Assembly: GCF_004116625.1 (NCBI RefSeq)
Contig: NZ_NXIE01000002.1
Coordinates: 62,001-126,000 of the forward strand
Source of the DNA: Halarcobacter mediterraneus
GTDB taxonomy: Bacteria > Campylobacterota > Campylobacteria > Campylobacterales > Arcobacteraceae
DNA: 64,000 bases
Direction of reading: 5' to 3'
A program made the position numbers and the translations under genes. The stretch's first letter is position 1. Each line of letters starts with the position of its first letter. The notes below the pieces were generated by a model. That model made no database searches, had not been told where the DNA came from, and worked only from the letters and a program-made list of their open reading frames with translations. This document shows, in pieces, positions 175 to 15,231 of this stretch.

Positions 175-197
175 AAATAACCTTTTTTAAGTGATAG

Positions 198-227: not shown

Positions 228-298
228 CATAAAATAAGTCACCAAACAATATTTATAAATTTGAATCACTAAGTAAGTATTGGAACTGATTTACCTTA

Positions 299-1039: not shown

Positions 1040-1393
1040 CCGTATCCTTTTTTATTTGGCTAACCTTGAACTTGAAACAAGAGTATTTTTCATGAGATTG
1101 TTCAAATTTACTTTTTTTATTTTACTAAATAAAACTTCAAACTACTACAAGTATACCTTTGTTTCTTCCAAAGTTATGTTATAAGTTCATGGCTTACAGA
1201 CCTTACAAGCTCTAAATCCATTTTCAATAGCTTAAACTCTTGTATCATGAAATAGTACATTTTTTTAAGGACTTTTTTACCTTACAAAATGGTAAACAAA
1301 ATATCCCAGTTAATTTTACTATTGTATAAAATAGACTATCATATTTTGTATCTTTTTGCCCAATAATTTGATATTTTCCTTGATTTATCATTT
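1040..1393. other. 354-bp gap without a recognisable gene
   Basis: No frame with family resemblance is visible on either strand. The only notable item is GGCTAAC at 1058-1064, a near-match to an integron core box. A possible partner box is near 1165-1175 with a short matching arm (TTGTTTC / GAAACAA). This could be a worn long attC, but the pairing is too poor to call. Confidence 0.4.
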
Positions 1394-1909: not shown

Positions 1910-2679
1910 TAAAATAAACTTTGAAATGAGTTATCTTTAGTTATTGTTTCTAATTTATTTTCAAAATTTTCTATAAGTTTATTGTATATAAATGGTCCTT
2001 GACTTACCCTTTTTACTCCTGCATTTTCCAATACATCAAAAGAGTCTAAATCAGGCATTGTCATTACATTAAGGGGTAAATTTATATTTTGTGTAATTGT
2101 TTTAATATCTTCAATATTAACTATACAAGGTACAAAAATACCATCAACCCCTATGTCTTCATAAAGTTTAATTCTTTCTAAAGTATTTTCAAGTGGATTT
2201 TCTAAGCCCATAATAAAATTATCAGTTCGTACATTTATAAATATATCAATATTTTTTTCCTTTAGGCTATCTACAATCTCTTTTAATATTTGTGCAAATC
2301 TATCTTTATCCACAATTTCTCTTATCCCGTTTTCTACTACAGAATCTTCTATATTGATACCAACTACACCAATATCATAAAGGGAAATAATATTTTCAAT
2401 AATTTTGTTGATATCACGGCTATATCCTGCTTCAATATCAACACTAAGAGGTACATTTACTTTAGAGATGATTTGTTTTACTATTTTATATAACTCTTCA
2501 AAGCTCATCTCCTCACCATCTTCATAACCCAAGCTTTTGGCAATTGCAAAACTTGAAGTACCGATAGCTTTATAGCCTTGTTTTTCGAATATCAATGCAT
2601 TATTTAAGTCCCAAACATTACCAATATGTAAAATTTCTTTAGAAACATGTAATTCTCTAAATTGTTGTGTTTTTGTCAT
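1909..2679 (-). CDS. Isocitrate lyase / PEP mutase superfamily protein
   Basis: A 256-residue TIM-barrel protein of the isocitrate lyase/phosphoenolpyruvate mutase superfamily. Visible family marks are the SVDIEAGYS metal-binding strand (about 79-87), GINIEDS (about 107-113) and the NVRTD strand. The isocitrate-lyase KKCGH loop is absent, so it is not a glyoxylate-cycle enzyme. C-C lyases and PEP-mutase-like enzymes of unknown substrate are the closest class. AAAGGAG precedes the ATG. It lies between a Crp/Fnr-type regulator and ogt in one apparent transcript; the functional link is not evident. Confidence 0.85.
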   Translation of the reverse strand: MTKTQQFRELHVSKEILHIGNVWDLNNALIFEKQGYKAIGTSSFAIAKSLGYEDGEEMSFEELYKIVKQIISKVNVPLSVDIEAGYSRDINKIIENIISLYDIGVVGINIEDSVVENGIREIVDKDRFAQILKEIVDSLKEKNIDIFINVRTDNFIMGLENPLENTLERIKLYEDIGVDGIFVPCIVNIEDIKTITQNINLPLNVMTMPDLDSFDVLENAGVKRVSQGPFIYNKLIENFENKLETITKDNSFQSLF

Positions 2680-2736
2680 GTCATACTCCTTTATGTTATT
2701 TTAGAGTATTGTATTAAAAAATAAAATCTATTTCAT

Positions 2737-3336
2737 TCACCTAGATTCATTTTTACGAAGTTTACTTAAAGTTTGAGGAGCAACTCCTAAAAATGTGGCT
2801 ATATGGTATGACTTTACTTTTTTAAAAATATTTGGGTATTCGTCAAGTAGTCTTTTGTATCTCTCCTCAACATTTTCACTCATCAAAGATATAACTCTTT
2901 TATAGGTAGAACTAAAATAAGTATCATGTAACCAAACTCTGGCTACATGTTCCCATTTTTTATCTGCATTTTTCAAAAACTCATCCATATCTCTTAAACT
3001 AATAACATAAAATATACAGTCTTCCAAAGCTTCAAAATGTAACATAGAAGCATCATTTTCATAATAACTTACACTGTCATCCATAAAGTGGTTTAATCCA
3101 TATTTACTTTTACCTCTAAAATATATTTGCCAAGTAAAATCTTTGCCATTTATATCTGTAAAATAGGATCGTGCCAATCCTCTTTTAATAAAATAAAAAT
3201 CACTGAAAATATCTCCTGCATTTGAAATAATTGTACCTTTCTTAACTTCTACTTTTTTAAATCTTGAAGTTAATTCATCCCATTCGTTTTCAGCTATATT
3301 TATATGTTTTGTGATTAGTTTTTTTAAATATCTCAT
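2737..3336 (-). CDS. Crp/Fnr-type transcriptional regulator
   Basis: About 199 residues from the ATG at 3336. The frame is open further upstream, but that extension is simply translated attC sequence, so the inner ATG with AAGG is the better start. The N-terminal part is a cyclic-nucleotide-binding-type beta barrel (ISNAGDIFSDFYFIKRGLAR; the G-D--- and F-IK-G pattern). A C-terminal helix-turn-helix contains HIATFLGVAPQTLSKLRK. No cysteine cluster of Fnr type is present, so it does not look like an iron-sulfur oxygen sensor. It directly precedes the PEP-mutase-like and ogt genes and may regulate them. Confidence 0.85.
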   Translation of the reverse strand: MRYLKKLITKHINIAENEWDELTSRFKKVEVKKGTIISNAGDIFSDFYFIKRGLARSYFTDINGKDFTWQIYFRGKSKYGLNHFMDDSVSYYENDASMLHFEALEDCIFYVISLRDMDEFLKNADKKWEHVARVWLHDTYFSSTYKRVISLMSENVEERYKRLLDEYPNIFKKVKSYHIATFLGVAPQTLSKLRKNESR

Positions 3337-3353
3337 GAGTGCCTTTTTTGTAA

Positions 3354-3421
3354 TTATAACGATTGAATTGAGAAATAGTTTACCCTCAGGGTAATTTATT
3401 GTCTCCACTGATTTGTTATAC
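3354..3421 (-). repeat. attC integron recombination site A
   Basis: Read on the minus strand, it starts with GTATAAC (R'') and ends with GTTATAA (R'). Between them is an imperfect hairpin, GAGACAATAAATTACCC paired with GGGTAAACTATTTCTC around a TGA tip. The stop codon of the kinase gene (3416-3418) lies inside the R'' box, as is usual for cassettes. The Crp-like gene starts just after the R' box. Confidence 0.88.
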
Positions 3422-3910
3422 ATTTGCTTCAATAATTATATTAAATCCTTCGCTTTTCGATGGAGCTTCAAAATATTGTGTAACATGATTAAATACTTCT
3501 TCATTATCAAATTGTGCTCTATGAGGTTGTTGATCTCTTCGTTTAGCAATTTGGACTAAACACTGCTCATCACTTAAGTCTAGAAAGATAAGCTCATGAT
3601 TACACTTTACCTCATTACATAGTTGTTTGAACCATTGTCTTTGTTTTTTTGTATTTGCAGGGAAATCCATAACTACATTTGTACCTGTATTTAAAATCTG
3701 TTCTACATGTGACTTCACAAAAGGTTTAATCAGCATGGAGAATTTTATAAAATCATCAAAAGAGTTTATTTGATTTGGATAATGAGCTTCCAGCCAATCA
3801 TCTTCTGAAAGAAGTACTGCATTTTTCTCAAGTGATATGGTTTTTGATTTTGTAGTTTTTCCAGCTCCCATTTTTCCACAAAAAAAAGTGAGTGTTCCTT
3901 TTTGGTTCAT
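3416..3910 (-). CDS. P-loop kinase-like ATPase, integron cassette gene
   Basis: 164 residues from the ATG at 3910, chosen because AGGAAGA lies just upstream and earlier codons belong to a toxin remnant. The Walker A motif is CGKMGAGKTTKSK near the N terminus. SEDDW follows where small kinases carry the substrate-binding acidic pair. A nucleotide-monophosphate-kinase-like lid (AKRRDQQPHRAQFDNEE) is in the C-terminal half. Related short ATPases are found near zeta toxin and shikimate-kinase-like groups; the substrate is unknown. TAA is embedded in attC site A. Confidence 0.82.
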   Translation of the reverse strand: MNQKGTLTFFCGKMGAGKTTKSKTISLEKNAVLLSEDDWLEAHYPNQINSFDDFIKFSMLIKPFVKSHVEQILNTGTNVVMDFPANTKKQRQWFKQLCNEVKCNHELIFLDLSDEQCLVQIAKRRDQQPHRAQFDNEEVFNHVTQYFEAPSKSEGFNIIIEANV

Positions 3911-3926
3911 TAATTCTTCCTTTAGT

Positions 3927-3959
3927 GTATAACGTTTGTCGTGATCGTATTTGTTATAT
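3927..3959 (-). repeat. Collapsed attC-like site
   Basis: On the minus strand ATATAAC and GTTATAC boxes enclose only about 19 bases. The flanks (AACAAAT next to R'' and AAACGTTA at R') equal those of the full attC sites B and D. The central hairpin arm has been lost. It separates the toxin remnant from the kinase gene. Recombination activity is doubtful without the stem. Confidence 0.55.
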
Positions 3960-4243
3960 CTTTCTCTCTTTCCAATAGTTCGGTTATGAAGTTGCATAAC
4001 AGCTAAAATAATAATTTCATCATCTCTTTGAAAATAAATTATGCCAAATGGAAATCTGTTAGTTAAGCATCTTCTTATTTCTCCATCTAGTTTTTACCAA
4101 GCAGCAAGATATTCTAAAATTTGTTGGATTGTTTTTTGAACTTCATATGCAAATTCAACACCGAGTCCATCTTTACACTCTTGATAATAATCAACAAAAG
4201 CATTTAGTTCTAGTTCGGCATCTGGATGAAAAGAGTAAGCCAT
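3950..4243 (-). pseudogene. ParE/RelE-family toxin remnant
   Basis: The frame starts MAYSFHPDAELELNAFVDYY, a typical ParE/RelE start. An in-frame TAA stops it after about 49 codons (4096-4094), in a position where the family has a residue between AAW and KLDGEIRRCL. The frame then continues with GEIRRCLTNRFPFGIIYF and IIILAVMQLHNR, the usual second half of these mRNA-interferase or gyrase-poisoning toxins. The full length would be about 98 codons. The ATG abuts the stop of the upstream antidote remnant without spacing. The intact protein would have been a cytoplasmic toxin; with the stop it is presumably dead. Confidence 0.8.
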
Positions 4244-4477
4244 TTATGAGTTAAGTCTTTGAGAGATTTTTTTGAAAACTTCATTTCCATCAACCAACGT
4301 AACGGAATTTGACTCGATTTCTTATTTTCTTTTATTTGCTTCTTTTATCCAAAGTTAATCTATATCATTATTTAAAGGCGTAATACTAGCTAATATTTTG
4401 TCAACAATTTTAGTTTTCAAATCTATTGGTAAAATATCTATCTCATTAAAAAGTTCATCTTCTTTTAAAGCTGTCAT
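4244..4477 (-). pseudogene. Addiction-module antidote remnant (TIGR02574-like)
   Basis: The frame starts MTALKEDELFNEIDILPIDL, then KTKIVDKILASI, resembling the small antidote family paired with ParE/RelE toxins. Two in-frame TAA codons (4357-4355 and 4324-4322) interrupt it. The sequence between and after them still reads LWIKEANKRK and EIESNSVTLVDGNEVFKKI, the conserved end of this family. The ancestral length of 77 codons is normal. A 9-bp-arm inverted repeat at 4496-4528 just upstream is the likely autoregulatory operator. Confidence 0.78.
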
Positions 4478-4495
4478 AGTAAACTCCAATATTCA

Positions 4496-4528
4496 AATAT
4501 ACATTATTTTAGCAAAATGATGTATATT
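4496..4528. promoter_or_regulatory. Inverted repeat, probable antidote operator
   Basis: Perfect arms AATATACAT (4496-4504) and ATGTATATT (4520-4528) are separated by 15 bp and placed about 20 bp before the antidote ATG. Toxin-antitoxin operons are normally repressed at such palindromes. This one outlived the genes it served. Confidence 0.5.
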
Positions 4529-4567
4529 TTATCATTAAATAAAACTATTAAACAATTTTTAGTGTGA

Positions 4568-4702
4568 TTATAAAAAAGTATGTCTTTTAATTTTCTTATT
4601 ATCAAACCAGATGTAAGTTGCCGAATCATCATCAATCTCTTCAATTGTCATTATTTCAGTAGTAGCTTTTAACTGAACTGTATTTCCGCCTTTAAAACTC
4701 AT
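4568..4702 (-). CDS. Small DUF2158 (YodC-like) protein
   Basis: 44 residues, MSFKGGNTVQLKATTEIMTI then EEIDDDSATYIWFDNKK. The spacing of VQLK, MTIEEI and the W-F end match DUF2158/YodC proteins, which are usually 45-60 residues and of unknown function. AAAGGTG precedes the ATG. The next upstream element is a collapsed attC-like site (4799-4827), so it may be an old cassette gene. The family match is by eye on a short protein. Confidence 0.65.
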   Translation of the reverse strand: MSFKGGNTVQLKATTEIMTIEEIDDDSATYIWFDNKKIKRHTFL

Positions 4703-4798
4703 TTTACACCTTTATTTAAATTTACCAATTTACTTTCATAAATAGGCATATTCAAAATTGAGGGAAATATTCAGCTTTAGATATAACTATTTATTGAA

Positions 4799-4827
4799 TA
4801 TAACGGATAAAAAACTACTTGTTAGAA
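4799..4827 (-). repeat. Possible collapsed attC-like site
   Basis: On the minus strand TTCTAAC and GTTATAT enclose 15 bases with no hairpin. The sequence just beyond (ATTCAATAAATAGTTA on the minus strand) is shared with the right-hand end of the cassette array near 11395-11410. That shared block is the stronger hint that this is array-derived. Confidence 0.4.
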
Positions 4828-4840
4828 TAAGGGATAACAT

Positions 4841-4863
4841 AAAATAGTGCCTGACACCTTTTT
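4841..4863. repeat. 23-bp direct repeat, left copy
   Basis: Contains ATAGTGCCTGACACC between short A and T runs. An identical 23-bp copy lies at 5848-5870. The two bracket the YdhR-like gene, the small unknown gene and the XRE regulator. GTGCCTGACACC is nearly palindromic, recalling REP-type dispersed repeats. Confidence 0.75.
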
Positions 4864-4893
4864 TCTAAAATAAATCTTTCTTTTTTAGAATTA

Positions 4894-5202
4894 TTAACTG
4901 ATTATTTCATTTAAAATATTATCTACTATAACTGGTGTTTCAAGATAAGTAATCTCTGGTTCTGAACCATATTTTTCACGAACAAATTCTTTCCAACTTT
5001 CAGTATAAACGGCTTCTGCATCTTCACGAGACTCCCAAAGATAAATTCCACCAACAGAATGACCTTCATCAAAAATAACATAACACTTTCGAATCAATCC
5101 AGATAGTTTTTTATAATTTGGTGCCGTACTCAAAAATATATCTTTTGCCTCAGCCTGAGAAATAGGACTAGGTAACTTAAATTTAGTGATAGATGTAATC
5201 AT
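4894..5202 (-). CDS. YdhR-like putative monooxygenase
   Basis: 102 residues of ferredoxin-like fold. MITSITKFKLPSPISQAEAK, GGIYLWESREDAEAVYTESW and the PVIVDN ending follow the YdhR family of small dimeric monooxygenase-like proteins related to antibiotic-biosynthesis monooxygenases. No cofactor motif is present, as usual for the family, and no reaction is assigned. A very strong AAGGAGGAG ribosome site precedes the ATG. The promoter at 5228-5255 holds an AAGTACTT palindrome, so the gene is probably controlled by a repressor. Confidence 0.8.
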   Translation of the reverse strand: MITSITKFKLPSPISQAEAKDIFLSTAPNYKKLSGLIRKCYVIFDEGHSVGGIYLWESREDAEAVYTESWKEFVREKYGSEPEITYLETPVIVDNILNEIIS

Positions 5203-5227
5203 TCACTCCTCCTTAAGTAATTAATAT

Positions 5228-5255
5228 TTTATATAAAAAAGTACTTATGTGTCAA
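5228..5255 (-). promoter_or_regulatory. Promoter with AAGTACTT palindrome, YdhR-like gene
   Basis: Minus-strand TTGACA (5255-5250) and TATAAA (5233-5228) are 16 bp apart, with AAGTACTT (5239-5246) between them. The palindrome sits 5 bp before the -10, exactly as at 198-227. Confidence 0.6.
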
Positions 5256-5264
5256 ATACATTAA

Positions 5265-5480
5265 TCAACCATTTTTTTCAATTTTATCTATTTTTTTTTC
5301 AATAATTTTAATTGTATTTCCAATATTTTTTAAGATTTGTTCTTTTTGCTCAGTAGGAATACTTTCTGATAGTAAATATTTGATTACATTTAATGTTGTT
5401 TCAACAAGTATTAGGTCTTCTTGAAGATTATTTTTATAATTTTCAATTCTATCTATTGATATTTTTATTTTATCTTTCAT
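5265..5480 (-). CDS. Small coiled-coil protein of unknown function
   Basis: 71 residues from the ATG at 5480, which has GGGAG upstream; the longer frame from 5534 has no ribosome site and overlaps the divergent promoter region. MKDKIKISIDRIENYKNNLQ and IIEKKIDKIEKNG are charged, helical and likely to form a coiled coil. No family is recognised. It is divergent from the XRE regulator at 5577 and may be its target or partner. Confidence 0.5.
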   Translation of the reverse strand: MKDKIKISIDRIENYKNNLQEDLILVETTLNVIKYLLSESIPTEQKEQILKNIGNTIKIIEKKIDKIEKNG

Positions 5481-5576
5481 CAACACTCCCTTAATTAAAT
5501 AATTATGCTCTATAGAACATTTATAAAGAATCATATCTACTATAAACTTATAAATAAATTACCTATAGGACATATT

Positions 5577-5825
5577 ATGAATACAACTAACTTTTCAAAT
5601 GAAGAAATTGAAGTTTTTTATAAAAGAATTGGAGATAATGTAAGAAAATATCGAAAAGAAAAGAATTTTACTCAAATGCAATTAGCCTTAGCAATTGGTC
5701 ATAACTCTGTTGGGTATGTAGCAAAAGCGGAACTATACAAATATGGAAAACACTTCAATCTAGAACAACTATACAAAATATCTAAAGTGTTAGATATAAA
5801 ATTGAGTATGTTGATAGATGACTAA
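5577..5825 (+). CDS. XRE-family helix-turn-helix regulator
   Basis: 82 residues. The start at 5577 is preceded by TAGGA; the open frame begins earlier at 5505, but that part has no ribosome site. The HTH_3 domain covers about residues 14-80, KRIGDNVRKYRKEKNFTQMQ then ALAIGHN and LEQLYKISKVLDIKLSMLI. It is a DNA-binding domain only, as in phage-type or restriction-control regulators. Palindromic CCTATAGG (5562-5569) overlaps the ribosome site and CTATAG recurs near 5511-5516, which could be its operator. Confidence 0.8.
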   Translation: MNTTNFSNEEIEVFYKRIGDNVRKYRKEKNFTQMQLALAIGHNSVGYVAKAELYKYGKHFNLEQLYKISKVLDIKLSMLIDD

Positions 5826-5847
5826 TCTTTTAAATTATTAATTACTT

Positions 5848-5895
5848 AAAATAGTGCCTGACACCTTTTTAGACACCTTTTTAGACACCTTTTTA
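5848..5895. repeat. 23-bp direct repeat, right copy, plus short tandem repeats
   Basis: The first 23 bp (5848-5870) equal 4841-4863. They are followed by two further copies of the 12-mer AGACACCTTTTT. Homology to lpdA begins directly after, so this is a rearrangement junction. Confidence 0.7.
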
Positions 5896-6218
5896 TTGGT
5901 CTCAATTATGAAGTTTCATCATTCCCATGGTCTGCTTCTGGACGTGCATTAGCAGCAGATGTTGCAGATGCTGGTATGACAAAACTTATCTTCGATAAAG
6001 ATACTCACCAACTAATTGGTGGAGCAATCGTAGGAGATAACGCAGGGGAGCTATTAGGAGAAATCTCACTAGCTCTAGAGATGGATTGTGATGCAGAAGA
6101 TATAGGACTTACAATTCACGCTCACCCAACACTACACGAGTCTGTAGGTATGTGTGCAGAGATATTCCATGGGAGTATTACTGATTTACCAAATGCAAAG
6201 GCTGTTAAGAAAAAATAG
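5895..6218 (+). pseudogene. lpdA 3' fragment, copy 1 (dihydrolipoyl dehydrogenase C terminus)
   Basis: The frame is open without a start from about 5895 and ends at TAA 6218. It reads GLNYEVSSFPWSASGRALAA, GMTKLIFDK, IGGAIVGDNAGELLGEISLA, then IHAHPTLHES and ITDLPNAKAVKKK. This is the dimerisation domain of the E3 subunit of 2-oxoacid dehydrogenases, including the HAHPTLHE catalytic histidine and glutamate. The FAD and NAD domains are missing, so about three quarters of the gene is absent. An ATG at 5976 exists but would yield only 80 residues with no active enzyme. A terminator follows at 6244-6278. Confidence 0.88.
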
Positions 6219-6243
6219 TTTTAAACTGTTAAAATATTTGAAT

Positions 6244-6278
6244 AAAACCCATCTTCTTTATTTGAAGGTGGGTTTTTT
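6244..6278. terminator. Rho-independent terminator of the lpdA fragment
   Basis: AAAACCCATCTTC pairs with GAAGGTGGGTTTT around a 7-base loop, followed by T residues. One G-T pair. The 3' arm and loop recur in the second lpdA fragment at about 7246-7267. Confidence 0.85.
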
Positions 6279-6982
6279 ATACAAAAATATCTAAATTTGT
6301 TGTGTTTACAGAATCTTTATATTTCAGTGTAGAGTCATCAAGTCCTAGTGCTTTTTCCAATTGCTTAATTAATTTTGATTTATCATCTTTATATAAATAA
6401 CTTTCAATACTAGCTATAAATTTTTTTTCAAAATCTTTGTCAGTTTTTAATCTTTCATATAATTTATTAAAATCTACACTTTCTACTTCTTTTTCTAGTG
6501 TAAAATTTAATTGAAGCTCTTTTTGTATATTTACACTTTTTTCATAGTAGCTAGTATGAAAAGCAATTCTGCTAACTCTTGTTTGGCCTTCTCTTGTGTA
6601 GTTTTCATCATCATATGCTAAATGTTGTAGTATAGTCTACTTGTGCATATATATTATAATAATGTGTTCTTCCATTGCCATTATATACATCGAAGCTATC
6701 TTGAGAAGCAGATGTTATGGTAAAATCACCTGAGCCATCTTCCCCATTTTTGAAGTTTTCAATTATATCTGAAACTTTTCTTATGCCATTTACAGCATTT
6801 TTTAACCAAGGATATTCTTTTAATTGTTCTTTTGTTGGTTCATATTCTTTTCGTTGATTATCTACTTCTGCAATAGCAGAGTTTATTTTATTTACAGTTT
6901 CTTCATCAAGTTTTTGCGCCTTGGGTAAAGTTAATATCTCTTTAAAAGAATTTAATACATTATTTGAAGAATCTACTATCAT
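6277..6982 (-). pseudogene. Unknown gene, broken by a frameshift
   Basis: The first part starts at ATG 6982 (AAAGGAT upstream) and ends at TGA near 6611 after 123 residues. In another frame the sequence continues without a stop from about 6620 to TAA at 6279-6277, beginning AYDDENYTREGQTRVSRIAF and ending NTTNLDIFV. The second half has no start codon of its own and similar composition, so the ancestral protein was about 235 residues. No slippery heptamer is seen at the junction. No family is recognised. It lies between the two lpdA fragments and its end overlaps the lpdA terminator. Confidence 0.6.
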
Positions 6983-7059
6983 ATGAATCCTTTTTAAACT
7001 ACTAATAAGAATTGTATTACTTATTTTATTAATAATGGTTTAAGTTATATGCAATTTAA

Positions 7060-7264
7060 TGTTAATATTAAGGGTGCTTCTTAAAATGATACTGATGCAA
7101 AAGATATTTGATTTACAATTCATACTAATTTAATATTATATGAGTTTGTTGTAGGTATGTGTGTGGAGATATTTTACGGAAGTATTTAATGTCAAGGCTG
7201 TTAAGAATAAATATTTTTTAGGCTATTTTAAAAAAAATTAAAAACTTCTTTATTTTTTGAAGGT
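7060..7264 (+). pseudogene. lpdA 3' fragment, copy 2, heavily decayed
   Basis: Aligns by eye with about 6070-6275: GATGCAAAAGATAT, GATTTACAATTCA, GTAGGTATGTGTG, GAGATATTTTACGGAAGTAT and AAGGCTGTTAAGAA follow in the same order as copy 1. Frame stops and a small deletion show it is dead. It ends with the lpdA terminator remnant (CTTCTTTATTTTTTGAAGG) and runs straight into the R' box of attC site B. Confidence 0.8.
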
Positions 7265-7334
7265 GGGTAACGTTTGACTTGAAAAATAGTTGTACCCGCA
7301 GGGTCAACTATTTTTCTCCAATAATTTGTTATAT
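7265..7334 (-). repeat. attC integron recombination site B
   Basis: On the minus strand ATATAAC opens and GTTACCC closes the site. The hairpin arms GAGAAAAATAGTTGACCC and GGGTACAACTATTTTTC pair around a tip of TGC. It follows the monooxygenase gene and abuts the second lpdA fragment. Confidence 0.88.
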
Positions 7335-7341
7335 ACTTTTG

Positions 7342-7659
7342 TTAAAATTCATAGTCTTTTTCAACTTTTGCGATTCTAACTTTGTATTGTTTGTACCAAA
7401 TTTCCTTACCCTGTTTTTGAGCTTCTTGATGTTCTAGATTCTTTTTCCAATTTTGGATTGATTTTTCATTTTTCCAATATGAAACTGTAATTCCTAGATC
7501 TTCTCTTGCAGATTCAAATCCAAGAAATCCATCTTGCTGAGATACTAATTCAACCATTTTATCGGACATTTTACTATATCCTTTGTCTTCATCAATTTTT
7601 ATCGATGTAAATATCACTGCATAATATGGTGGTTTTGGTGTATCACTTATATTTGACAT
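7342..7659 (-). CDS. Antibiotic-biosynthesis-monooxygenase-domain protein, cassette gene
   Basis: 105 residues with an ABM ferredoxin-like fold: YAVIFTSIKIDEDKGYSKMS, DGFLGFESAREDLGITVSYW and a W-K--- helix ending IWYKQYKVRIAKVE. Such proteins act on quinone-like or heme-like substrates without metals; the substrate here is unknown. AAAGGAA precedes the ATG. Its own attC (site B) lies directly downstream. The attC of the upstream cassette (site C) lacks its R' box, so this gene and the GNAT gene may no longer separate. Confidence 0.82.
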   Translation of the reverse strand: MSNISDTPKPPYYAVIFTSIKIDEDKGYSKMSDKMVELVSQQDGFLGFESAREDLGITVSYWKNEKSIQNWKKNLEHQEAQKQGKEIWYKQYKVRIAKVEKDYEF

Positions 7660-7671
7660 TTGTCAATTTCC

Positions 7672-7732
7672 TTTTAAATGAGCCGATGAATTACCCTCAG
7701 GGTAATTTATTAGCTCCCCTGATTTGTTATAT
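7672..7732 (-). repeat. attC integron site C, R' box lost
   Basis: The R'' box ATATAAC and hairpin arms GGGGAGCTAATAAATTACCC and GGGTAATTCATCGGCTC are intact and nearly match site F. Where GTTRRRY is expected, the sequence runs CATTTAAAAGGAAATTGACA into the next gene. The GNAT stop (7727-7729) is inside R''. Confidence 0.8.
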
Positions 7733-8167
7733 TTTCTTTAATTTCATGTGTATTAAAGGAAATGGGTTACCTTCTCCATCAAGTACAGAGCGACCTGATT
7801 GAACAAATCCCATTCGCTGATAAAACCCAATTGCATCGAGATTTTGTTCGTTTACATCAACTTTTGATGCGCCAAGATTCTCAATGGCGTATTTAGTTAA
7901 CTTTCGACCGATTTTTTGACCGATATAATCTGGATCTACAAATAACATTTCAATTTTCGAATCAGCAACACCAATAAATGCCAATATCTTATCGTTAATA
8001 TCTTTAAAACAACGCAAATCAACAGCATCAAAATACTGTTCTAAAATCAGAAGTTTTAACTCTGCGATTTTTTCCTCTGATAAAAATTTATGTGTTGCTC
8101 TAACAGAAGCTTCCCAGACATTGATTAATTCCTGATAATTTTCTTTTGTAACTTTTTGAATATTCAT
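7727..8167 (-). CDS. GNAT-family N-acetyltransferase, cassette gene
   Basis: 146 residues, YjaB-like GNAT. An acyl-CoA-dependent acetyltransferase of small molecules or proteins. IEMLFVDPDYIGQKIGRKLT (about 92-111) holds the beta-4 strand and the pyrophosphate-binding Q/R-x-x-G-x-G/A loop (here IGQKIGRKL). VNEQNLDAIGFYQRMGFVQS is the usual final strand and helix. AAGGAACC precedes the ATG. The stop codon lies inside attC site C. Acetyltransferases are frequent integron cargo, but the substrate here cannot be read. Confidence 0.88.
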   Translation of the reverse strand: MNIQKVTKENYQELINVWEASVRATHKFLSEEKIAELKLLILEQYFDAVDLRCFKDINDKILAFIGVADSKIEMLFVDPDYIGQKIGRKLTKYAIENLGASKVDVNEQNLDAIGFYQRMGFVQSGRSVLDGEGNPFPLIHMKLKKI

Positions 8168-8181
8168 GGTTCCTTCTTTAA

Positions 8182-8252
8182 ATATAACGTTTATCTTGAG
8201 AAATAGTTTTGCCCGCTAGGGTAAACTATTTCTCTCCAAGGTTTTGTTAGAT
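8182..8252 (-). repeat. attC integron recombination site D
   Basis: On the minus strand ATCTAAC opens and GTTATAT closes. Arms GAGAGAAATAGTTTACCC and GGGCAAAACTATTTCTC form a long hairpin with tip TAGC. It follows the PIN-domain gene and precedes the GNAT gene. Confidence 0.9.
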
Positions 8253-8276
8253 TATTTTTTATAAATCATGTATACC

Positions 8277-9104
8277 TTAAAAAAACTTTTCCCATAATGG
8301 TTCAATTCTAGTGCCGATAATAGCTTTGCCAATATTATCTAATCCTCTAACCATTACATATAATCCAGCTAATATCTGCAATCCTTCTTTTGGACCCAAA
8401 GTGGAATAATTAAATAATGGAAAGAATACATATAATGACATAATTATACCAGCAAAGAACTCAAATACTCCATATGATAATCTAAAATTTTCTCTAAACC
8501 AAAAAAGTATAATTCCTACAATAGGTAATGCTACTAATGTTCCCCAAACTGTTATTGTTGATATGATAATATTTAAATAAAAATAAATTAAATTACCTAA
8601 TATTGACGCAAAAATTCCAAGGAAAAAACTTATAAATAATTGTTTTTTTTGAGATGATACAATTTTATTTGCAGAATTCTTAACTTCTTCATTAATTGTT
8701 TCATTATCAGACTCATCTAAAAATACTTTACCAGTGATAGTTTTTACACCATTCTTTTTTAAAACTTTTGCAAATTTCAAATCATCAGTAACAACAATAG
8801 GAACATTAGTTTTTGATTCTTCTAGTGCTATATATAAAGTGTCTATATCACTATCACTTAATTTATAATTAGATTTATCTAATTCTGATATATTTTTTGT
8901 GGGATTTTTAGGAGCATGAATAATTTTGATTCCATTATCTATAAAACTTGATACAAATTTGAAAATATCTGGCATTTTAGTTTTGGGGCCAAACATATAA
9001 AGTTCATCCATTACAGATTTAGGTATTACCATTTCTCTACTTTCTATTCTAGAAAGAATTTGTGGATATTGAATTAAAATATTTGTATCAATTATATATA
9101 TCAT
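8277..9104 (-). CDS. PIN-domain nuclease with C-terminal membrane segments, cassette gene
   Basis: 275 residues. Residues 1-130 form a PIN-type RNase domain: YIIDTN (first Asp at about 6), VMDELY (Glu near 35), LSDSDIDTLYIAL (Asp pair near 103) and VTDDLKFAK (Asp near 122), the acidic set that holds metal. From about 155 on there are four hydrophobic segments (LFISFFLGIFASILGNLIYF, ITVWGTLVALPIVGIILFWF, VFEFFAGIIMSLYVFFPLF and LQILAGLYVMV). The nuclease is therefore membrane-tethered on the cytoplasmic face. No antitoxin gene accompanies it. AAGGAAC precedes the ATG. The role could be RNA cleavage in stress or defence; this is inference. Confidence 0.8.
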   Translation of the reverse strand: MIYIIDTNILIQYPQILSRIESREMVIPKSVMDELYMFGPKTKMPDIFKFVSSFIDNGIKIIHAPKNPTKNISELDKSNYKLSDSDIDTLYIALEESKTNVPIVVTDDLKFAKVLKKNGVKTITGKVFLDESDNETINEEVKNSANKIVSSQKKQLFISFFLGIFASILGNLIYFYLNIIISTITVWGTLVALPIVGIILFWFRENFRLSYGVFEFFAGIIMSLYVFFPLFNYSTLGPKEGLQILAGLYVMVRGLDNIGKAIIGTRIEPLWEKFF

Positions 9105-9160
9105 TTTGTTCCTTAGTAAATATTATTAATATAATAGCTACTATCTATATTCTTTTTGTT

Positions 9161-9208
9161 ATCTAACGCCGCATTCAGCGGCTTGTCCGCTGCAATGCTT
9201 TGTTAGGC
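9161..9208 (-). repeat. attC integron recombination site E, GC-rich foreign type
   Basis: On the minus strand GCCTAAC opens and GTTAGAT closes. The short hairpin is GCAGCGG ACAAG CCGCTG. It is only 48 bp and much richer in GC than everything around it, unlike the other attC sites here. It resembles short gammaproteobacterial attC sites. It overlaps the 3' end of the DUF6414 gene. Confidence 0.92.
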
Positions 9209-10227
9209 GATGTGTGACGATAAACTAAAATTGGATGCACTAACACTCTTGGATATCGACAAGTTCTCACCATTGCCTCCATACCGTCAAACCCTCTAAA
9301 CATACCGCGAAAAGCACTTTCAACACTTTCAAAATCTTCTAGTTCATCTTTTTCAAATTCTTCCAACGGGGAGAAGCTTTCCTCCTCATTCAGTGGTACT
9401 GAAGTTACGATTCCAAGTATGGTAAACTCTTCTGTTGGAAAGGACCCGTATGTGAAATGGAATGCAGTTGGGTCATTAATTGTGAAGTTTTCGGAGTCTA
9501 AATGCCCAAAGATATGCTCATCGTTTTGATCTTTGAAGGGATAGACTCGAATATTAGTAATATTGGGCAAGAAAGCATCAATCCATGTTCTCATCCCATC
9601 CAGTATCCACTGAGGTACAGCATCTACCGCTGTCGATGAGGAAACTAAATTATCTAGTCCTTCTCTTAATTCTTTTGCTTTTTGTTTTGCCTTAGATTTC
9701 TTATTCCTATCACCTGTCGTATTTTCAAGCTCTTTTATCTGCTGTTCAATTGCCTGATACTCAGGATTGTCTTTTAATGAATCGGCATGACTCCTATTGA
9801 TAAGTTTCACGATATCAGGAAAGTCTTTACCAATTTTCTTCATTCTTTCATAGTCTTCAATGACTATTCGCCCTGTGCATTTGATACATAATGCATTTTT
9901 CAATGTTGCTCTTAGCTCTGGGTCTTTAAGGGTTTTGTCTCCGTCAAGACCGTCTAAGTCCAAGAGATAACCTGACGACAATAATTCTGCTTCCAATTCT
10001 TGCAGCAGTGCATGATGAGGCTTGATTGTTGTTTTGTCTTGATCTTTGTCTTGAGTGGTTCCACCTGCATCATGTTTAAACACTTTGAAATCGTAATTTC
10101 TTTTGTTGTCTGAGGTGATACTTTTCTCAGATTGAGTTTCCTTAAGCTCAACAACGCCTCCCGTGAGCTGACTGTACAATGAAATTGCTTTATCTAAATC
10201 AACATACAAATAGTCATATAAATTCAC
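9175..10227 (-). CDS. DUF6414-family protein, cassette gene
   Basis: 350 residues from a GTG at 10227 with AAGGAAG 8 bp upstream. It begins MNLYDYLYVDLDKAISLYSQ and TGGVVE, as in DUF6414 proteins, which often lie in defence-rich loci; no activity is established. A helical, lysine-rich section spans about 160-195. No membrane segment is visible. The last residues, SPNKALQRTSR, are translated attC sequence, a well-known trait of cassette-encoded proteins. Base composition is higher in GC than its neighbours, and its attC (site E) is of foreign type, so this cassette probably came from another lineage. Confidence 0.8.
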   Translation of the reverse strand: MNLYDYLYVDLDKAISLYSQLTGGVVELKETQSEKSITSDNKRNYDFKVFKHDAGGTTQDKDQDKTTIKPHHALLQELEAELLSSGYLLDLDGLDGDKTLKDPELRATLKNALCIKCTGRIVIEDYERMKKIGKDFPDIVKLINRSHADSLKDNPEYQAIEQQIKELENTTGDRNKKSKAKQKAKELREGLDNLVSSSTAVDAVPQWILDGMRTWIDAFLPNITNIRVYPFKDQNDEHIFGHLDSENFTINDPTAFHFTYGSFPTEEFTILGIVTSVPLNEEESFSPLEEFEKDELEDFESVESAFRGMFRGFDGMEAMVRTCRYPRVLVHPILVYRHTSPNKALQRTSR

Positions 10228-10251
10228 AGGACTTCCTTATTTTAATTTTTC

Positions 10252-10320
10252 GCCTAACGTTTAAAATGAGCCGATGAATTGCCCGCAGGGTAATTTATTG
10301 GCTCCGCTGATTTGTTAGGT
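10252..10320 (-). repeat. attC integron recombination site F
   Basis: On the minus strand ACCTAAC opens and GTTAGGC closes, both canonical. Arms GCGGAGCCAATAAATTACCC and GGGCAATTCATCGGCTC form the hairpin with tip TGC. It follows the RES gene and precedes the DUF6414 gene. Confidence 0.93.
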
Positions 10321-10326
10321 ATTCTT

Positions 10327-11364
10327 TTAATATTCCACTGGTCCAAAATGTACTCCGTACTCAACAGTATGTAAAACTAATCTATTTATACATTTAACAC
10401 TTATTTTTGATTCCTTAAGAGGCTTTCCAAATAATGCAAGGTTTTGAATTATTTTACTTTTTTCATACTCATGTAATTGAGGAATTAACCTATGTGACAG
10501 ACCATACGTTGTTTCAAATGGCATCCCTCCTGAACGAAGTAAACTAAAATATGATGGATAAGCAATTCCATCATATCCATTCTCCTTTGCCAACCTACTA
10601 AGGTCTCTTGATATTTCATAAGAGTGTTTACCGGCTAAAAAAAGCATATGTACAGCCATATCCAAACTTTCAAATTCAGTACAATCTTCTTTGAGTATTG
10701 CAGTAAGATCAAGAAGTTTTAATGTTCTGGTTGGTTGAAAAGTTGCTACAAAAATTTCGTCCTCTGCACTCACTCGACACTCGTGAATACAAACTTGTAA
10801 ATCCTGAGAACCATAAAGAATTGAAAAATCAGTAGAATCTAAACGACCATTGCCTGAATATTCTAGTGGAGGGCTATCATATTCAGATTCAACATGAGGT
10901 TTTTCGGGGTTAATTCGTATACGATAAAAAAGGTCATCTTTTGAAAAATCAATTGTAGGGTATTCATTTAATACTCTCTCTAATACATTTTTTCGATTTG
11001 TTTCACTAATCAATTCTTTGAGTGGTTCGATTTCACCAACCATCCATAATCTTGGACCGTAATGAAAAAAACCTATTTTTAATACTTTTTCAAAAAGATG
11101 AATATCGTTCTGAATCCAAGTTGATGAAGCTATACTTGTTTTTTGATGCTGATTAAATTGAACAATTGGAGCCGCTCCATAATCACATCTATAAAGTGTT
11201 CCCCAAACAAAGAAACGATGGGCTAATTGAATTAAACGTGCTTCATCAAGCTTCCGTCCTAGTTTACTTCCACAGTTTTCACAAAGGTTGTCATTTTCTA
11301 CACCCATTTGAAAAGCACTTAACTTTAGACCTTCATCATAAAAACATTCAGAGCATAAAACCAC
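10327..11364 (-). CDS. Zinc-ribbon RES-domain protein, cassette gene
   Basis: 345 residues from a GTG at 11364 (AAGGTGAT upstream). Residues 4-33 carry CSEC and CENCGS, a four-cysteine zinc ribbon. A central part of unknown fold follows. The RES domain starts near 145: FYRIRINP supplies the conserved arginine, GNGRLDSTDFSILYGSQDL the tyrosine and CIHECRV the glutamate, with YDGIAYPS near the end. RES domains act as NAD-degrading toxins in Xre-RES systems, but no antitoxin gene is next to this one. It is the first cassette behind the promoter at 11414-11433. A phage-defence or NAD-depleting effector is plausible but inferred. Confidence 0.82.
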   Translation of the reverse strand: MVLCSECFYDEGLKLSAFQMGVENDNLCENCGSKLGRKLDEARLIQLAHRFFVWGTLYRCDYGAAPIVQFNQHQKTSIASSTWIQNDIHLFEKVLKIGFFHYGPRLWMVGEIEPLKELISETNRKNVLERVLNEYPTIDFSKDDLFYRIRINPEKPHVESEYDSPPLEYSGNGRLDSTDFSILYGSQDLQVCIHECRVSAEDEIFVATFQPTRTLKLLDLTAILKEDCTEFESLDMAVHMLFLAGKHSYEISRDLSRLAKENGYDGIAYPSYFSLLRSGGMPFETTYGLSHRLIPQLHEYEKSKIIQNLALFGKPLKESKISVKCINRLVLHTVEYGVHFGPVEY

Positions 11365-11390
11365 GTATCACCTTTCAATTATTTGTATAT

Positions 11391-11397
11391 ACCTAAC
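11391..11397 (-). other. Right-hand integron core site (attI or old attC half-site)
   Basis: GTTAGGT on the minus strand matches GTTRRRY and sits 27 bp before the RES start codon, the point where the first cassette joins. The sequence beyond it has no attC hairpin. It could be a former attI or a half-site left by loss of the integrase end. Confidence 0.6.
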
Positions 11398-11413
11398 TAT
11401 TTATTGAATATAC

Positions 11414-11433
11414 ATTATATAAATAAAGTACTT
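11414..11433 (-). promoter_or_regulatory. Putative promoter of the cassette array
   Basis: Minus-strand TATAAT (11419-11414) is preceded by the AAGTACTT palindrome (11426-11433), 6 bp away, as in the promoters at 198-227 and 5228-5255. The -35 position (AGTGGA) is poor. It points into the RES cassette and could act like the Pc promoter of an integron. Confidence 0.5.
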
Positions 11434-11580
11434 AAATCCACTAATTTATTATATATTTAGTAAAAAAGCTTATTTCACGCATCTTTATAAATAAAGATTA
11501 CAAAATACAATATTTTTTCTATATATTTTTATTATAAGTTATAATTTTTATGTATATTTTATATCGATATTTGAAACTTT

Positions 11581-11599
11581 AATATACATAATGTATGTT
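11581..11599. promoter_or_regulatory. 19-bp near-perfect palindrome
   Basis: AATATACATAATGTATGTT differs from its reverse complement by one base pair per arm. It lies 50 bp before a mini frame at 11650. The remainder of 11434-11700 holds no gene of family resemblance. A repressor site is possible. Confidence 0.4.
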
Positions 11600-11649
11600 A
11601 AAAGTGAAAAATTTAACTTTAAATAACATTTTATAGTTTAGGAGATATT

Positions 11650-11682
11650 ATGGGCAAAGATATATATTTTATTTCAAAATAA
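11650..11682 (+). other. Mini frame with a strong ribosome site
   Basis: TAGGAG precedes ATG at 11650 and the frame reads MGKDIYFISK then TAA. Ten residues with so good a start look like the head of a gene cut off at the edge of the cassette array, or a leader peptide. The hairpin at 11703-11730 follows. Confidence 0.3.
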
Positions 11683-11702
11683 ATCAAGGTAGAGAGTTAT
11701 GA

Positions 11703-11730
11703 AGAAAGATTGCTTTTATGCAATCTTTCT
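11703..11730. terminator. Bidirectional terminator downstream of purH
   Basis: Perfect 11-bp stem AGAAAGATTGC / GCAATCTTTCT with loop TTTTAT. T-rich sequence lies on the plus-strand exit side. It lies 4 bp beyond the purH stop and separates the housekeeping chromosome from the accessory region. Confidence 0.85.
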
Positions 11731-11734
11731 ATTT

Positions 11735-13267
11735 TTAGTGTAAAAAGTGTCTTTTACCTGAGAAGTATAAAGCCATACCAAACTCATTTGCTGCTTCAAT
11801 AATCTCATCATCTCTGATACTTCCACCTGGTTCAATCACACATTTTACACCTGCTTCTTGTGCAGCATCAATTGAATCTCTAAATGGAAAGAATGCTTCA
11901 GATGCTAGAACTGAACCTGTTACATCTAGTCCTAAGTCTTCTGCTTTTCTAAGTGCTGCTTTAGCTGCATCAACTCTTGAAGTCATACCCATACCAACTG
12001 CTACCATTGCCGAGTTTTTCACGTATACAACACAATTTGATTTTGTTAAAGAAGCTACTTTATATGCTATTTCCATATCTTTTACTTCTTGTTCGCTTGC
12101 TTCTCTTTTTGATTTTAGTTCTGAGTTTCTTACTTCATCATCTTCAACTTTATCAGCATCTTGGTAAACAAATCCACCATCAACTATTTTGAAGTTAAAT
12201 GCATCATTTGCCATTTCAAGTTTTGCAGTTCCTTGTTTGAATAGTTTGATTCTTTTTTTCTTGTTTAACTCTTCTTCTGCCTCAGGAGTGAAATCAGCTG
12301 CAAATACAACTTCTAAGAAGATTTCATTCATTTTTACTGCTAAGTCTAAATCAACTACACCATTTACTGCTACAACTCCACCAAATGCAGAGATTGGGTC
12401 ACATTTAAGAGCTTCAGTATAAGATTCTAAAAGTGTATCTTTGATAGCAAATCCACAAGGGTTTCCGTGTTTTACGATACAAACTGCATTGTCATCACCA
12501 AAAGCAGATGCTATTTTTGCAGCTCCTGAGATATCTCCCATATTATTGAAACTTGCTTCACCTTTTAGTGTGATAAATTTATTTGATAAGTGTTTATCAA
12601 ACTCGTATAAAGCACCTTTTTGGTGTGGGTTCTCTCCATATCTTGTATCAAATACTTTCTCACCAACGATAAATTGTTTTTGCCCCATACCGTTGTTGAA
12701 TCTTTTGTTCATATAGTTTGCAATCATAGAGTCATATGCTGCTGTGTGCTCATATGCTTTTATCATCAAGTCTCTTCTGAACTCTTGAGTATTTGTATCA
12801 TTTTTTAGGTTGTTTAATACAACATCATAATCAGCAACATCAGTTACAATGATAACAGAGTCATGGTTTTTAGCAGCAGATCTAACCATAGCTGGACCAC
12901 CAATATCGATGTTCTCAATAATCTCTTCAAAGTCATCAGTTTTTTCAATAGTTGCTTTGAATGGGTATAAATTAACACATACTAAATCAATACCTTCAAC
13001 TCCAAGTTCTTTTGCTTGGTCTAAGTGAGATTGTTTATCACGTCTGTGTAAAATACCACCATGAATATATGGGTTTAGAGTTTTAACTCTACCTTCAAAA
13101 CACTCAGGGAATTTTGTAACTTCATTTGCTTCAATTACAGCTATTCCTGCATCTTTAAGCTTATTATATGTACCACCAGTAGAAATAATTTCATAACCTA
13201 ACTCTACAAGTTCTTTTGCAAAGTTTTCAACACCACTTTTGTCACTTACACTAATTAATGCTCTCAA
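11735..13267 (-). CDS. purH: Bifunctional AICAR formyltransferase / IMP cyclohydrolase
   Basis: 510 residues, near the usual 510-530. It catalyses the last two steps of purine synthesis: formylation of AICAR with 10-formyl-THF, then ring closure to IMP. Residues 1-140 are the MGS-like cyclohydrolase domain ([31 protein letters not shown]). The transformylase domain carries [11 protein letters not shown] (Lys-His catalytic pair, about 268) and SDAFFPF-type [12 protein letters not shown] near 470. It stands alone in this window; purL follows 4.8 kb further on in the same direction. Cytoplasmic. Confidence 0.97.
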
Positions 13268-13416
13268 TTTAAGTCCTCTTTTAAATTATTATACTTGCCA
13301 TTATACTAAAAAAGTGATTATGTGTTGCTTGTTTAAGATTGTCTATTTTATATATAACTTTTATACTAGGGATTGTTATTTTTACTGTTATAATATTTTC
13401 TTTTGAAGGGTCTTAT

Positions 13417-15231
13417 ATGAGCAATCTTGATTTATTATGGATATTACTTAGTGCTTTTTTAGTTTTCCTAATGCAATTTGGTTTTTCTTTAATTGAAACG
13501 GGTACTGTGAGAACAAAAAATACCATAAATGTAGCAATGAAAAACTTAATAGATACGGTATTTGGTATTATTTTTTTCTGGATTATTGGTTTTGGTTTAA
13601 TGTTTGGAAGTAGTAATTCAGGTTTTATTGGAATAGATAGTTTTCTAATAGATGGCAAAAATTTAGAACAAAATGCAATCTTTTTCTTTCAAGCTATGTT
13701 TGCTGCAACTGCTATTACTATTGTTTCAGGAGCAGTTGCAGAAAGAATAAGATTCAATGCTTATATTATTGTTGCAATAATTGTGGCTTCTATTATTTAT
13801 CCTATTTTTGGGCATTGGAGTTGGAACTCTCAAGGTTGGCTAAAGCAAATGGGATTTGTAGATTTTGCAGGTTCTACTGTTGTCCACTCTATAGGAGCTT
13901 GGATTGGGCTTGCAGGTACTTTAGTACTGGGAGCACGATTAGGAAAATTTAGAAAAGGGAAAGTAAACTATTTTGCACCTTCAAATCATAACTTTATAGT
14001 TTTTGGGGTATTTGTTCTTATGTTAGCTTGGTTTGGCTTTAATGCTGGAAGTTTATTTGAATTTGATATTCAAGTTACTCTTATATTATTTAATACTTTA
14101 ATTTCTGCACTATTTGGTGGTTTTGCTGCTTGGTTAATAACTTTTATCAATAAAGAAAGAACAGGTGTAGAAATTTTCAGTTTTGGAATTATTTCTGGAT
14201 TAGTTGGTATAACTGCTGGATGTCATGTATTTTCTGTTTATGAATCTGCTTTTGTAGGTTTTATGTCTGCTATTATTATGCATATTACAAATGAATATTT
14301 AACAAAAAAACTAAAAATTGATGACCCTTTGAGTGTTATTAGTATTCATGGTTTTGCCGGAGCTTGGGGAACTCTTGCTGTTGCAATTTTTACTGATTCT
14401 CAAATAGGCTTATCTACTTTTGAATTTATTCTTGTTCAAACTTTAGGACTATTAAGTGCTTTTTTATTTTCATTTGTTTTGGGCTTGATTTTATTTCTTG
14501 TTTTACAAAGATATAAATTATTAAGAGTTAGAAAAAAACATGAAGTAATTGGTCTAAATACAAGTGAACATAATGCAAAACTTCCTTGGGTAGAAACAAT
14601 TGAAAGTATTGTAACAATTATGAAAACAGGAAATATAAATAAAAAAATATATGAAGAAAGAGATACAGAAGTTGGAATTGTTGCAAAATTTTTTAACTAC
14701 TTACTTGCCATGCTTAGAGAGAAAAATGAAAATCTTAAAAAATCAAATACCTCTTTACATAAAAAAGCTTATTATGATTCTTTAACAAATATTTTAAATA
14801 GGAGAGGTTTATTAGAAAAAATCAAAAATAAACCTTTTGAGGATGAATATTCAATAATTATTGCTGATATTGATAAATTTAAAAATGTAAATGATACTTA
14901 TGGACACGATGTAGGAGATATTATTTTAAGTGAATTTGCCTCTTTAATAAGTAAAAAGATACGTTCACATGATATTTTTGCAAGATGGGGAGGAGAAGAG
15001 TTTATAATTGTTATAAATACTAGTGATTTAAATATTGTGCAAAATATTGCAGAAAAGATAAGACTTGATATTGCAAGTTCAAAATTTACTACAGTAGGAA
15101 ATGTAACTGCTTCATTTGGAGCAAGTAATTTTAAGAAAAAGAATCAAAACTTTGAGGATATATTTAAAAATGCAGATGAGGCTTTATATCAAGCTAAAAA
15201 ACTAGGAAGAAATAGAGTTTACTGTTATTAA
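13417..15231 (+). CDS. Ammonium transporter (Amt) fused to a GGDEF diguanylate cyclase
   Basis: 604 residues from the ATG at 13417. GAAGGG lies just upstream and a TATAAT near 13388, so the TTG at 13339 is unlikely. Residues 1-370 are an Amt/Mep channel with about 11 membrane segments and the twin histidines (VVHSIGAW about 157; SIHGFAGAWG about 311). A linker with a HAMP-like helix leads to a GGDEF domain (about 450-604): signature WGGEEF near 525-529 and the RxxD inhibitory site RSHD five residues before it. The domain should make c-di-GMP on the cytoplasmic side. It is probably an ammonium sensor-transducer; whether it also transports is open. No glnK neighbour is present. Confidence 0.93.
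   Translation: MSNLDLLWILLSAFLVFLMQFGFSLIETGTVRTKNTINVAMKNLIDTVFGIIFFWIIGFGLMFGSSNSGFIGIDSFLIDGKNLEQNAIFFFQAMFAATAITIVSGAVAERIRFNAYIIVAIIVASIIYPIFGHWSWNSQGWLKQMGFVDFAGSTVVHSIGAWIGLAGTLVLGARLGKFRKGKVNYFAPSNHNFIVFGVFVLMLAWFGFNAGSLFEFDIQVTLILFNTLISALFGGFAAWLITFINKERTGVEIFSFGIISGLVGITAGCHVFSVYESAFVGFMSAIIMHITNEYLTKKLKIDDPLSVISIHGFAGAWGTLAVAIFTDSQIGLSTFEFILVQTLGLLSAFLFSFVLGLILFLVLQRYKLLRVRKKHEVIGLNTSEHNAKLPWVETIESIVTIMKTGNINKKIYEERDTEVGIVAKFFNYLLAMLREKNENLKKSNTSLHKKAYYDSLTNILNRRGLLEKIKNKPFEDEYSIIIADIDKFKNVNDTYGHDVGDIILSEFASLISKKIRSHDIFARWGGEEFIIVINTSDLNIVQNIAEKIRLDIASSKFTTVGNVTASFGASNFKKKNQNFEDIFKNADEALYQAKKLGRNRVYCY

Follow-up and report, generated by a model that had tools for sequence, protein, structure and literature searches.

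Integron gene cassettes are known to be transferred over broad phylogenetic distances, and integrons have already been recorded in Campylobacterota (excerpts of PMC8618304 and PMC11089894). attC sites have served earlier to trace the sources of cassettes (excerpt of PMC8352920), and decay of the integrase gene intI has been described in Xanthomonas in an excerpt of PMC12444791, which also reports that 20% of the Vibrio cholerae cassettes with unknown function encode anti-phage defense. A literature search for integrons of the group to which our genome belongs turned up nothing specific. Here, we describe a cassette array in the window, by which we mean the whole stretch of 64,000 nucleotides of Halarcobacter mediterraneus DNA that was analyzed, and in which one cassette, encoding a DUF6414 protein, was very probably captured as a foreign gene together with its attC from outside the phylum, as judged by sequence comparison. 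Cross-phylum cassette transfer is a known type of event, and the locus is a new and unusually complete example of it, with an unexplained gene.

Table 1. Features of the cassette array in the window, and DUF6414 genes of two temperate phage groups
Feature	Coordinates	Strand	Remarks
attI and intI promoter region	11394..11658	+	intI reads on the plus strand, cassettes on the minus strand
intI remnant	11645..11683	+	Internal scrap (WAKIYILFQNK) attached to the start codon region
First cassette, RES-domain gene 10327-11364	10258..11396	-	PF08808, E 7e-12; ends match
Native-type attC of RES cassette	10252..10320	-	78-97% identical to attCs of congeners L077, L081, L082
DUF6414 gene cassette	9167..10257	-	From TTAGGC 5' end to G of recombination point G↓TTAGAT
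DUF6414 protein gene	9175..10227	-	350 aa, GTG start, final 10 codons are translated attC
Probable foreign attC	9161..9208	-	48 bp, GC-rich, TGA stop of DUF6414 gene inside
PIN-domain/membrane gene of cassette after DUF6414	8277..9104	-	PF13638, E 6.7e-7; attC about 8187-8251
GNAT cassette	7672..8188	-	97.1% over 517 bp with second copy L023:5208-5724 (contig C1)
Native-type attC of ABM-domain cassette (gene 7342-7659)	7266..7331	-	
Native-type attC after AAA_33 kinase gene 3416-3997	3355..3420	-	
Phage DUF6414 genes, Nitratiruptor and Bordetella	L073:4501-5259, L075:4399-5298		Just downstream of repressor

IntI recombination cuts at G↓TTRRRY, so that the expected start of a cassette is a TTRRRY complementing the R'' box of that same cassette. 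This rule fits the ends of all four cassettes of the array in which it is testable, the pairs being GTTAGGT/ACCTAAC for the RES cassette, GTTAGGC/GCCTAAC for the DUF6414 cassette, GTTAGAT/ATCTAAC for the PIN cassette that follows it, and GTTATAT/ATATAAC for the GNAT cassette; the 5' core of the DUF6414 cassette exactly complements the R'' box of this cassette, and the 5' end of the PIN cassette pairs with that cassette's own box. Because the rule holds in the array, the limits of the DUF6414 cassette can be set at 9167-10257, and this interval is shown, as far as its sequence can tell, to be one complete integron cassette, second from attI in a chromosomal integron native to its Campylobacterota host, made up of the DUF6414 gene and its own 48-bp attC. 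The boxes of this attC (GCCTAAC...GTTAGAT, with GTTAGGC at the cassette's own 5' end) are complementary, as attC boxes are, and its predicted fold has an outer R''/R' stem separated by an unpaired spacer from an inner stem, in which one base is extrahelical. The encoded protein matches PF19952 (DUF6414) over the entire profile (positions 1-283 of 283; E 2.5e-21; 77.1 bits against a curated cut-off of 25) and ends in ...TSPNKALQRTSR, the residues before the stop being SPNKALQRTSR. The final codons, CCT AAC AAA GCA TTG CAG CGG ACA AGC CGC TGA, form the first part of the attC, and the tail PNKALQRTSR is translated attC. The preliminary description had placed the gene and its attC at these same positions and had read the protein end NKALQRTSR as translated attC, and both points hold, with the TGA stop lying inside the site. 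Such a tail alone says nothing on foreignness.

It had also been proposed that this attC is short, GC-rich, and unlike the others and that the composition of the gene departs from its neighbors. Indeed, the DUF6414 attC has 54% GC over its 48 bp, compared to 30-45% GC over 65-69 bp in five other attCs of the array, whose native type is 75-97% identical in the aligned parts to attCs of the congeners L077, L078, L079, L081, and L082. Composition was compared with the 33 window genes that lie beyond position 11,500 and encode 200 aa or more. The DUF6414 gene lies outside all 33, with higher GC (0.389 versus 0.277 ± 0.040) and GC3 (0.343 versus 0.134 ± 0.030, maximum 0.219) and a lower codon log-likelihood (-0.247 versus 0.567 ± 0.092, minimum 0.388), the last being the codon-usage comparison that had been suggested. 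The other array genes are closer to the host in GC3 (RES, 0.174; PIN, 0.127; ABM, 0.181; GNAT, 0.226). GC was rejected as a pointer to the donor, as the DUF6414 gene stays at 39-41% GC in six hosts with differing flanks; since it keeps its own GC in all of them, this composition shows evolution elsewhere without pointing to a donor.

At the head of the array, region 11394-11658 is 94.0% identical over 265 bp and 92.1% identical over 266 bp to the attI-intI spacers of two congeners with intact intI, L078 (G428) and L077 (G391), respectively, and the attI adjoins the first cassette, as in a complete integron. No intact intI follows: the remnant is 84.6% identical over 39 bp to intI of L077 and 87.9% identical over 33 bp to that of L078, and the junction within it apparently lies across a TGGG(C/T)AAA microhomology. 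The genome's only other intI, at C1:774012-774996 (L023:6013-6997), consists of pieces with stops, the best of which scores 212.9 bits and falls short of the 265-bit cut-off. In the family as a whole, intI above the cut-off was found in 16 of 104 genomes, with an open frame in 13 of those. The array holds six attCs between 3355 and 10320, one of them without its R' side, and falls within the CALIN definition of at least two attCs without intI; with attI, the intI promoter region, and the scrap of intI at 11391-11683, the array is a decayed integron from which the integrase was deleted.

Several further observations concern the array itself. The broken intI on C1 adjoins an attI and the second GNAT copy, such that one cassette lies behind two attI sites in one genome. 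The attC without its R' side is that of the GNAT cassette (about 7664-7690), so that this cassette and the ABM cassette appear to be fused. A 19-mer at 4784-4802 is identical to the attI part 11394-11412; after it on the minus strand come GTTATAT and a small gene, and the site may be a third boundary resembling attI. Debris within the array includes a partial dimerisation domain of a pyridine nucleotide-disulphide oxidoreductase (5976-6218), its decayed copy at 69% (7093-7268), and a 30-bp repeat, 93% identical, at 4834-4863 and 5841-5870. An Rfam scan of positions 1-14000 gave no match, and because promoter scanning of 9100-11740 returned sites no commoner than in shuffled sequences, no Pc promoter is claimed.

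Relatives of the window protein were sought in a single, non-exhaustive scan of 84,980 species genomes with short peptide patterns, and 11 were found. Identity to the window protein is 85% in a Desulfocapsaceae metagenome-assembled genome (MAG), where the gene-attC pair is present as a decayed copy, 82% in Saccharophagus and in a Desulfuromonas MAG, 81% in Stutzerimonas, 79% in a gammaproteobacterial MAG and in a Gallionella MAG, 75% in Vibrio, 56% in a Rhizobacter MAG, 55% in a Micavibrio MAG, and 45% in Idiomarina; the 11th relative, L021, is half a gene and was left out of all alignments and trees. Among these 11, none is a donor at high identity, the best reaching 85% at the amino acid level, and the hosts are mixed, as would be expected for a traveling cassette. 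The closest homologues (81-85%) belong to Desulfobacterota and Pseudomonadota and are not, as a refutation of the preliminary description would have it, all Campylobacterota with the same attC. Any DUF6414 gene was found in 6 of 397 Campylobacterota genomes, of which a single one, L009 (G362), encodes a protein close to that of the window (70.6%), and the window protein itself occurs in 1 of 104 genomes of its family. No attC was found at the L009 gene (1450-2508), whose product ends in ...STPNKTLQKKVTKK with the tail STPNKTLQKK; the pattern PNK.LQ may be the trace of a former attC of the DUF6414 type, the DNA of which has since worn down.

In a 10-row tree, which omits L019, L020, and L070 for their long branches, the Stutzerimonas and Gallionella copies pair with support of 100/100. 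Topology tests rejected a single clade for the four rows of class Gammaproteobacteria (p-AU 7.8e-9) and for the two Desulfobacterota rows (p-AU 0.006), whereas a clade of the two Campylobacterota rows, the window and L009, was not rejected (p-AU 0.125). In the phylogeny that had been proposed as a check, the hosts are thus mixed, but one old entry into Campylobacterota is compatible with the tree alone. Intact intI (above the TIGR02249 cut-off) was present in 4 of 15 other DUF6414-bearing genomes tested, with fragments in 3 more. The window protein had no match in the plasmid or phage records searched, and with distant DUF6414 members as queries none was found in viral contigs or in plasmids; the family as such reaches Haloferax volcanii.

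The attC accompanies the gene in 4 of the 11 relatives (L012, L015, L017, and L018) with 43-45 of 46 bases identical to the window, namely 45/46 in Saccharophagus and Stutzerimonas, 44/46 in Gallionella, and 43/46 in another gammaproteobacterium. A diverged form occurs in L014 (39/46) and L020 (41/46), and other attC-like ends that switch at the R'' box in L013, L016, and L019, apparently by attC exchange on the DUF6414 gene; no attC was recognized in L022, and the half gene L021 ends early. A 42-base core of the attC, queried with at most 3 mismatches, was found in 1 of 397 Campylobacterota genomes, which is the window's own, in 0 of 198 Desulfobacterota genomes, and in 6 of the 369 genomes from the class to which Stutzerimonas belongs, the Stutzerimonas genome included; with these centers left out, the enrichment in gammaproteobacteria is modest (5/368 versus 0/396 in Campylobacterota). 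The search against gammaproteobacteria that the preliminary description called for recovered the same gene-attC pair in Saccharophagus, Stutzerimonas, and another gammaproteobacterium. Eight plasmid records carry the core, all gammaproteobacterial (Pseudoalteromonas, Methylomonas, Thiothrix, Stutzerimonas, and Salinivibrio) in a collection that is itself rich in such records; five of the eight were opened and four scanned. The attC had no match in 10 integron stretches from nine genomes of the family (of these, L036 and L080 represent a single integron in G292, and four are short, about 3.9 kb) and none in phages, and E. coli gave weak matches, with 84-87% identity in 5 of 5426 genomes.

Compared to the four relatives with the same attC, the gene body of the window is 72-75% identical at the nucleotide level, and 28-32 of 90-99 fourfold-degenerate sites agree (29-33%), which is near saturation. 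Conservation is far stronger in the attC than in the DUF6414 gene that it accompanies, which was unexpected. Its constancy would reflect either strong selection as a folded recombination substrate, in addition to its role as coding sequence, or renewal by exchange. The gene-attC pair very probably represents a long-lived mobile unit spread over Gamma- and Betaproteobacteria and Desulfobacterota, with a nearly constant attC and a diverged gene. Near-identical attCs also stand behind unrelated genes; 10 were examined, 3 of which end in ALQRTSR (L050, L057, and L084). The unrelated proteins encoded at L050:9180-10172, L057:1061-1528, and L084:1641-2528 share the tail N(K/N)ALQRTSR because each gene runs into the same type of attC, and the literature searched makes no mention of ALQRTSR-type tails.

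The preliminary description attributed this arrangement to cassette transfer from another phylum by integrase action, and this attribution is supported by the closest homologues outside Campylobacterota, the attC that travels with the gene, the IntI-type ends in 4/4 testable cassettes, and the composition, although the integrase is now broken or gone. With high confidence, a Campylobacterota host took up a cassette of a type known from Pseudomonadota integrons, and the IntI of this host would have inserted it by attI x attC recombination with the folded bottom strand cut at G↓TTRRRY. With similar confidence, the insertion came after the older, deeper native cassettes had entered. Since intI here is reduced to a remnant and the other intI is broken, the insertion most likely preceded the loss of intI; that the cassette is only one place removed from the first position at attI points to a late arrival. 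The DUF6414 cassette would now be stranded unless an integrase acts in trans.

Three other histories were weighed against this transfer. That DUF6414 is an old resident of Campylobacterota integrons which only looks foreign, its attC being one of several native types, would fit the 70.6% homologue in another genome of the phylum, the non-rejected clade of window and L009 (p-AU 0.125), and the record of integrons in Campylobacterota (excerpt of PMC8618304), but it is very unlikely given an attC core present in 1 of 397 genomes of the phylum, a gene present in 1 of 104 of the family, closest homologues in Desulfobacterota and Pseudomonadota, and codon usage that is unameliorated. Swaps of attC on a DUF6414 gene do occur, as L013, L016, and L019 with their switch at the R'' box illustrate, and a native gene might have gained a foreign attC by recombination in this way; yet the composition of the gene is foreign too, the same gene-attC pair stands in four other genomes, and L013 and L015 have cassette 5' ends similar to that of the window (GTTAGGCGAAAAA), which makes such a swap extremely improbable. 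The deleted integrase of the array, the broken second intI, and the presence of this attC type on gammaproteobacterial plasmids would agree with entry within a larger piece of DNA by homologous recombination, plasmid, or phage without IntI. However, the boundaries are exact cassette boundaries, both neighbors are native-type cassettes, and the DUF6414 gene is absent from the plasmid and phage records searched, and we regard this route as highly improbable. Whatever the route of insertion, some vehicle that brought the DUF6414 cassette into the cell is still needed.

With regard to function, we tentatively consider the DUF6414 protein a candidate single-gene phage-defense or superinfection-exclusion factor, a possible but somewhat doubtful reading, because relatives adjoin repressor genes in two temperate phages. 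The spot after a phage repressor is often home to superinfection-exclusion genes. In Nitratiruptor phage NrS-3, DUF6414 lies downstream of the repressor on the same strand with one small gene between, and in the Bordetella avium prophage IFTN8 just downstream on the same strand, while the copy of Bordetella phage IFTN1 is located elsewhere, away from the repressor; Nitratiruptor phages NrS-2 and NrS-3 share an identical DUF6414 gene with G029, a genome of the same order as that of the window. At L008, DUF6414 overlaps a gene resembling, by reading, a restriction endonuclease. Among the 10 unrelated genes ahead of this attC type, 4 reach E <= 1e-3 against PADLOC families (Mrr/type IV, LmuB of Lamassu at E 7e-68, AbiJ, and NsnA/GmrSD at E 1.9e-40), and 2 more carry HEPN and NYN domains. 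As a control, adjacent cassettes in the loci of five relatives match PADLOC in 2 of 10 cases, and at 4/10 versus 2/10 the numbers are too small to claim an enrichment of defense cargo ahead of this attC type.

PADLOC has no fitting model for the window protein itself and gave only weak partial matches, the best at E 5.4e-4 over residues 126-230, a region that is largely predicted coiled coil. In the better of two structure predictions (pLDDT 72.7, with five models in agreement), a helical insert at about 126-197 sits in a beta domain, and VIA-align returned several rows (3f1z, AsnRS, OBodies, and Mcm3) that we take to be OB folds at weak Z scores of 4.6-5.8, none above 8; Foldseek against PDB and viral models gave no match at E <= 0.001, and a sequence search against solved structures gave nothing of note. 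Conceivably, the protein binds nucleic acid via an OB-like barrel that carries a coiled-coil insert. The literature searched contained no mention of DUF6414.

The chances are about even that DUF6414 is instead a regulatory, stress, or toxin-antitoxin-like protein and no defense gene, as some genes beside CI are regulatory, no PADLOC model or fold match fits, and the family is also found in Haloferax volcanii. Its patchy presence, its place behind the repressor in temperate phages of two unrelated groups, and the restriction endonuclease-like overlap partner in L008 argue against such a role. A wider proposal that we put forward as speculative, and rather unlikely as a whole, is that DUF6414 is an unrecognized single-gene anti-phage (superinfection-exclusion) family with two vehicles, temperate phages, where it sits beside the repressor, and integron cassettes, the cassette form belonging to a near-invariant attC lineage that favors defense cargo, crosses phyla, and adds the ALQRTSR tail to unrelated proteins.

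The locus provides what is very probably a base-exact case of a cassette crossing phyla into Campylobacterota, in which gene, attC, recipient attI, and native attCs are all identifiable. An attC that outlasts its gene may allow cassette lineages to be tracked after gene identity fades, and a decayed attC seems to leave a readable trace, PNK.LQ, as in L009. DUF6414 becomes a concrete, small, and testable phage-defense candidate. Its protein matches PF19952 over the full length, 10 of 10 further relatives tested match this profile too, and the cassette clade differs from the family at large by a long coiled-coil insert and the attC-made C-terminal tail. Like known chromosomal integron cassettes, the DUF6414 cassette consists of one open reading frame and one hairpin-forming attC with R''/L''/L'/R' boxes, its ends are of the kind exchanged at G↓TTRRRY, and it lies near attI; unlike typical ones, it has a probably foreign attC among native attCs, its gene reads into the attC, and the integrase is lost. 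The array shares with CALIN elements several attCs without an intact intI alongside, but as attI and the intI promoter region persist, it is a decayed integron and not a cluster that lacked intI from the start. A close parallel is found in the chromosomal integrons of Xanthomonas, in which, according to the excerpt of PMC12444791, intI was likewise lost by deletion or frameshift and the array frozen, whereas here the host belongs to Campylobacterota and the cassette very probably came from outside the phylum, not from within a genus.
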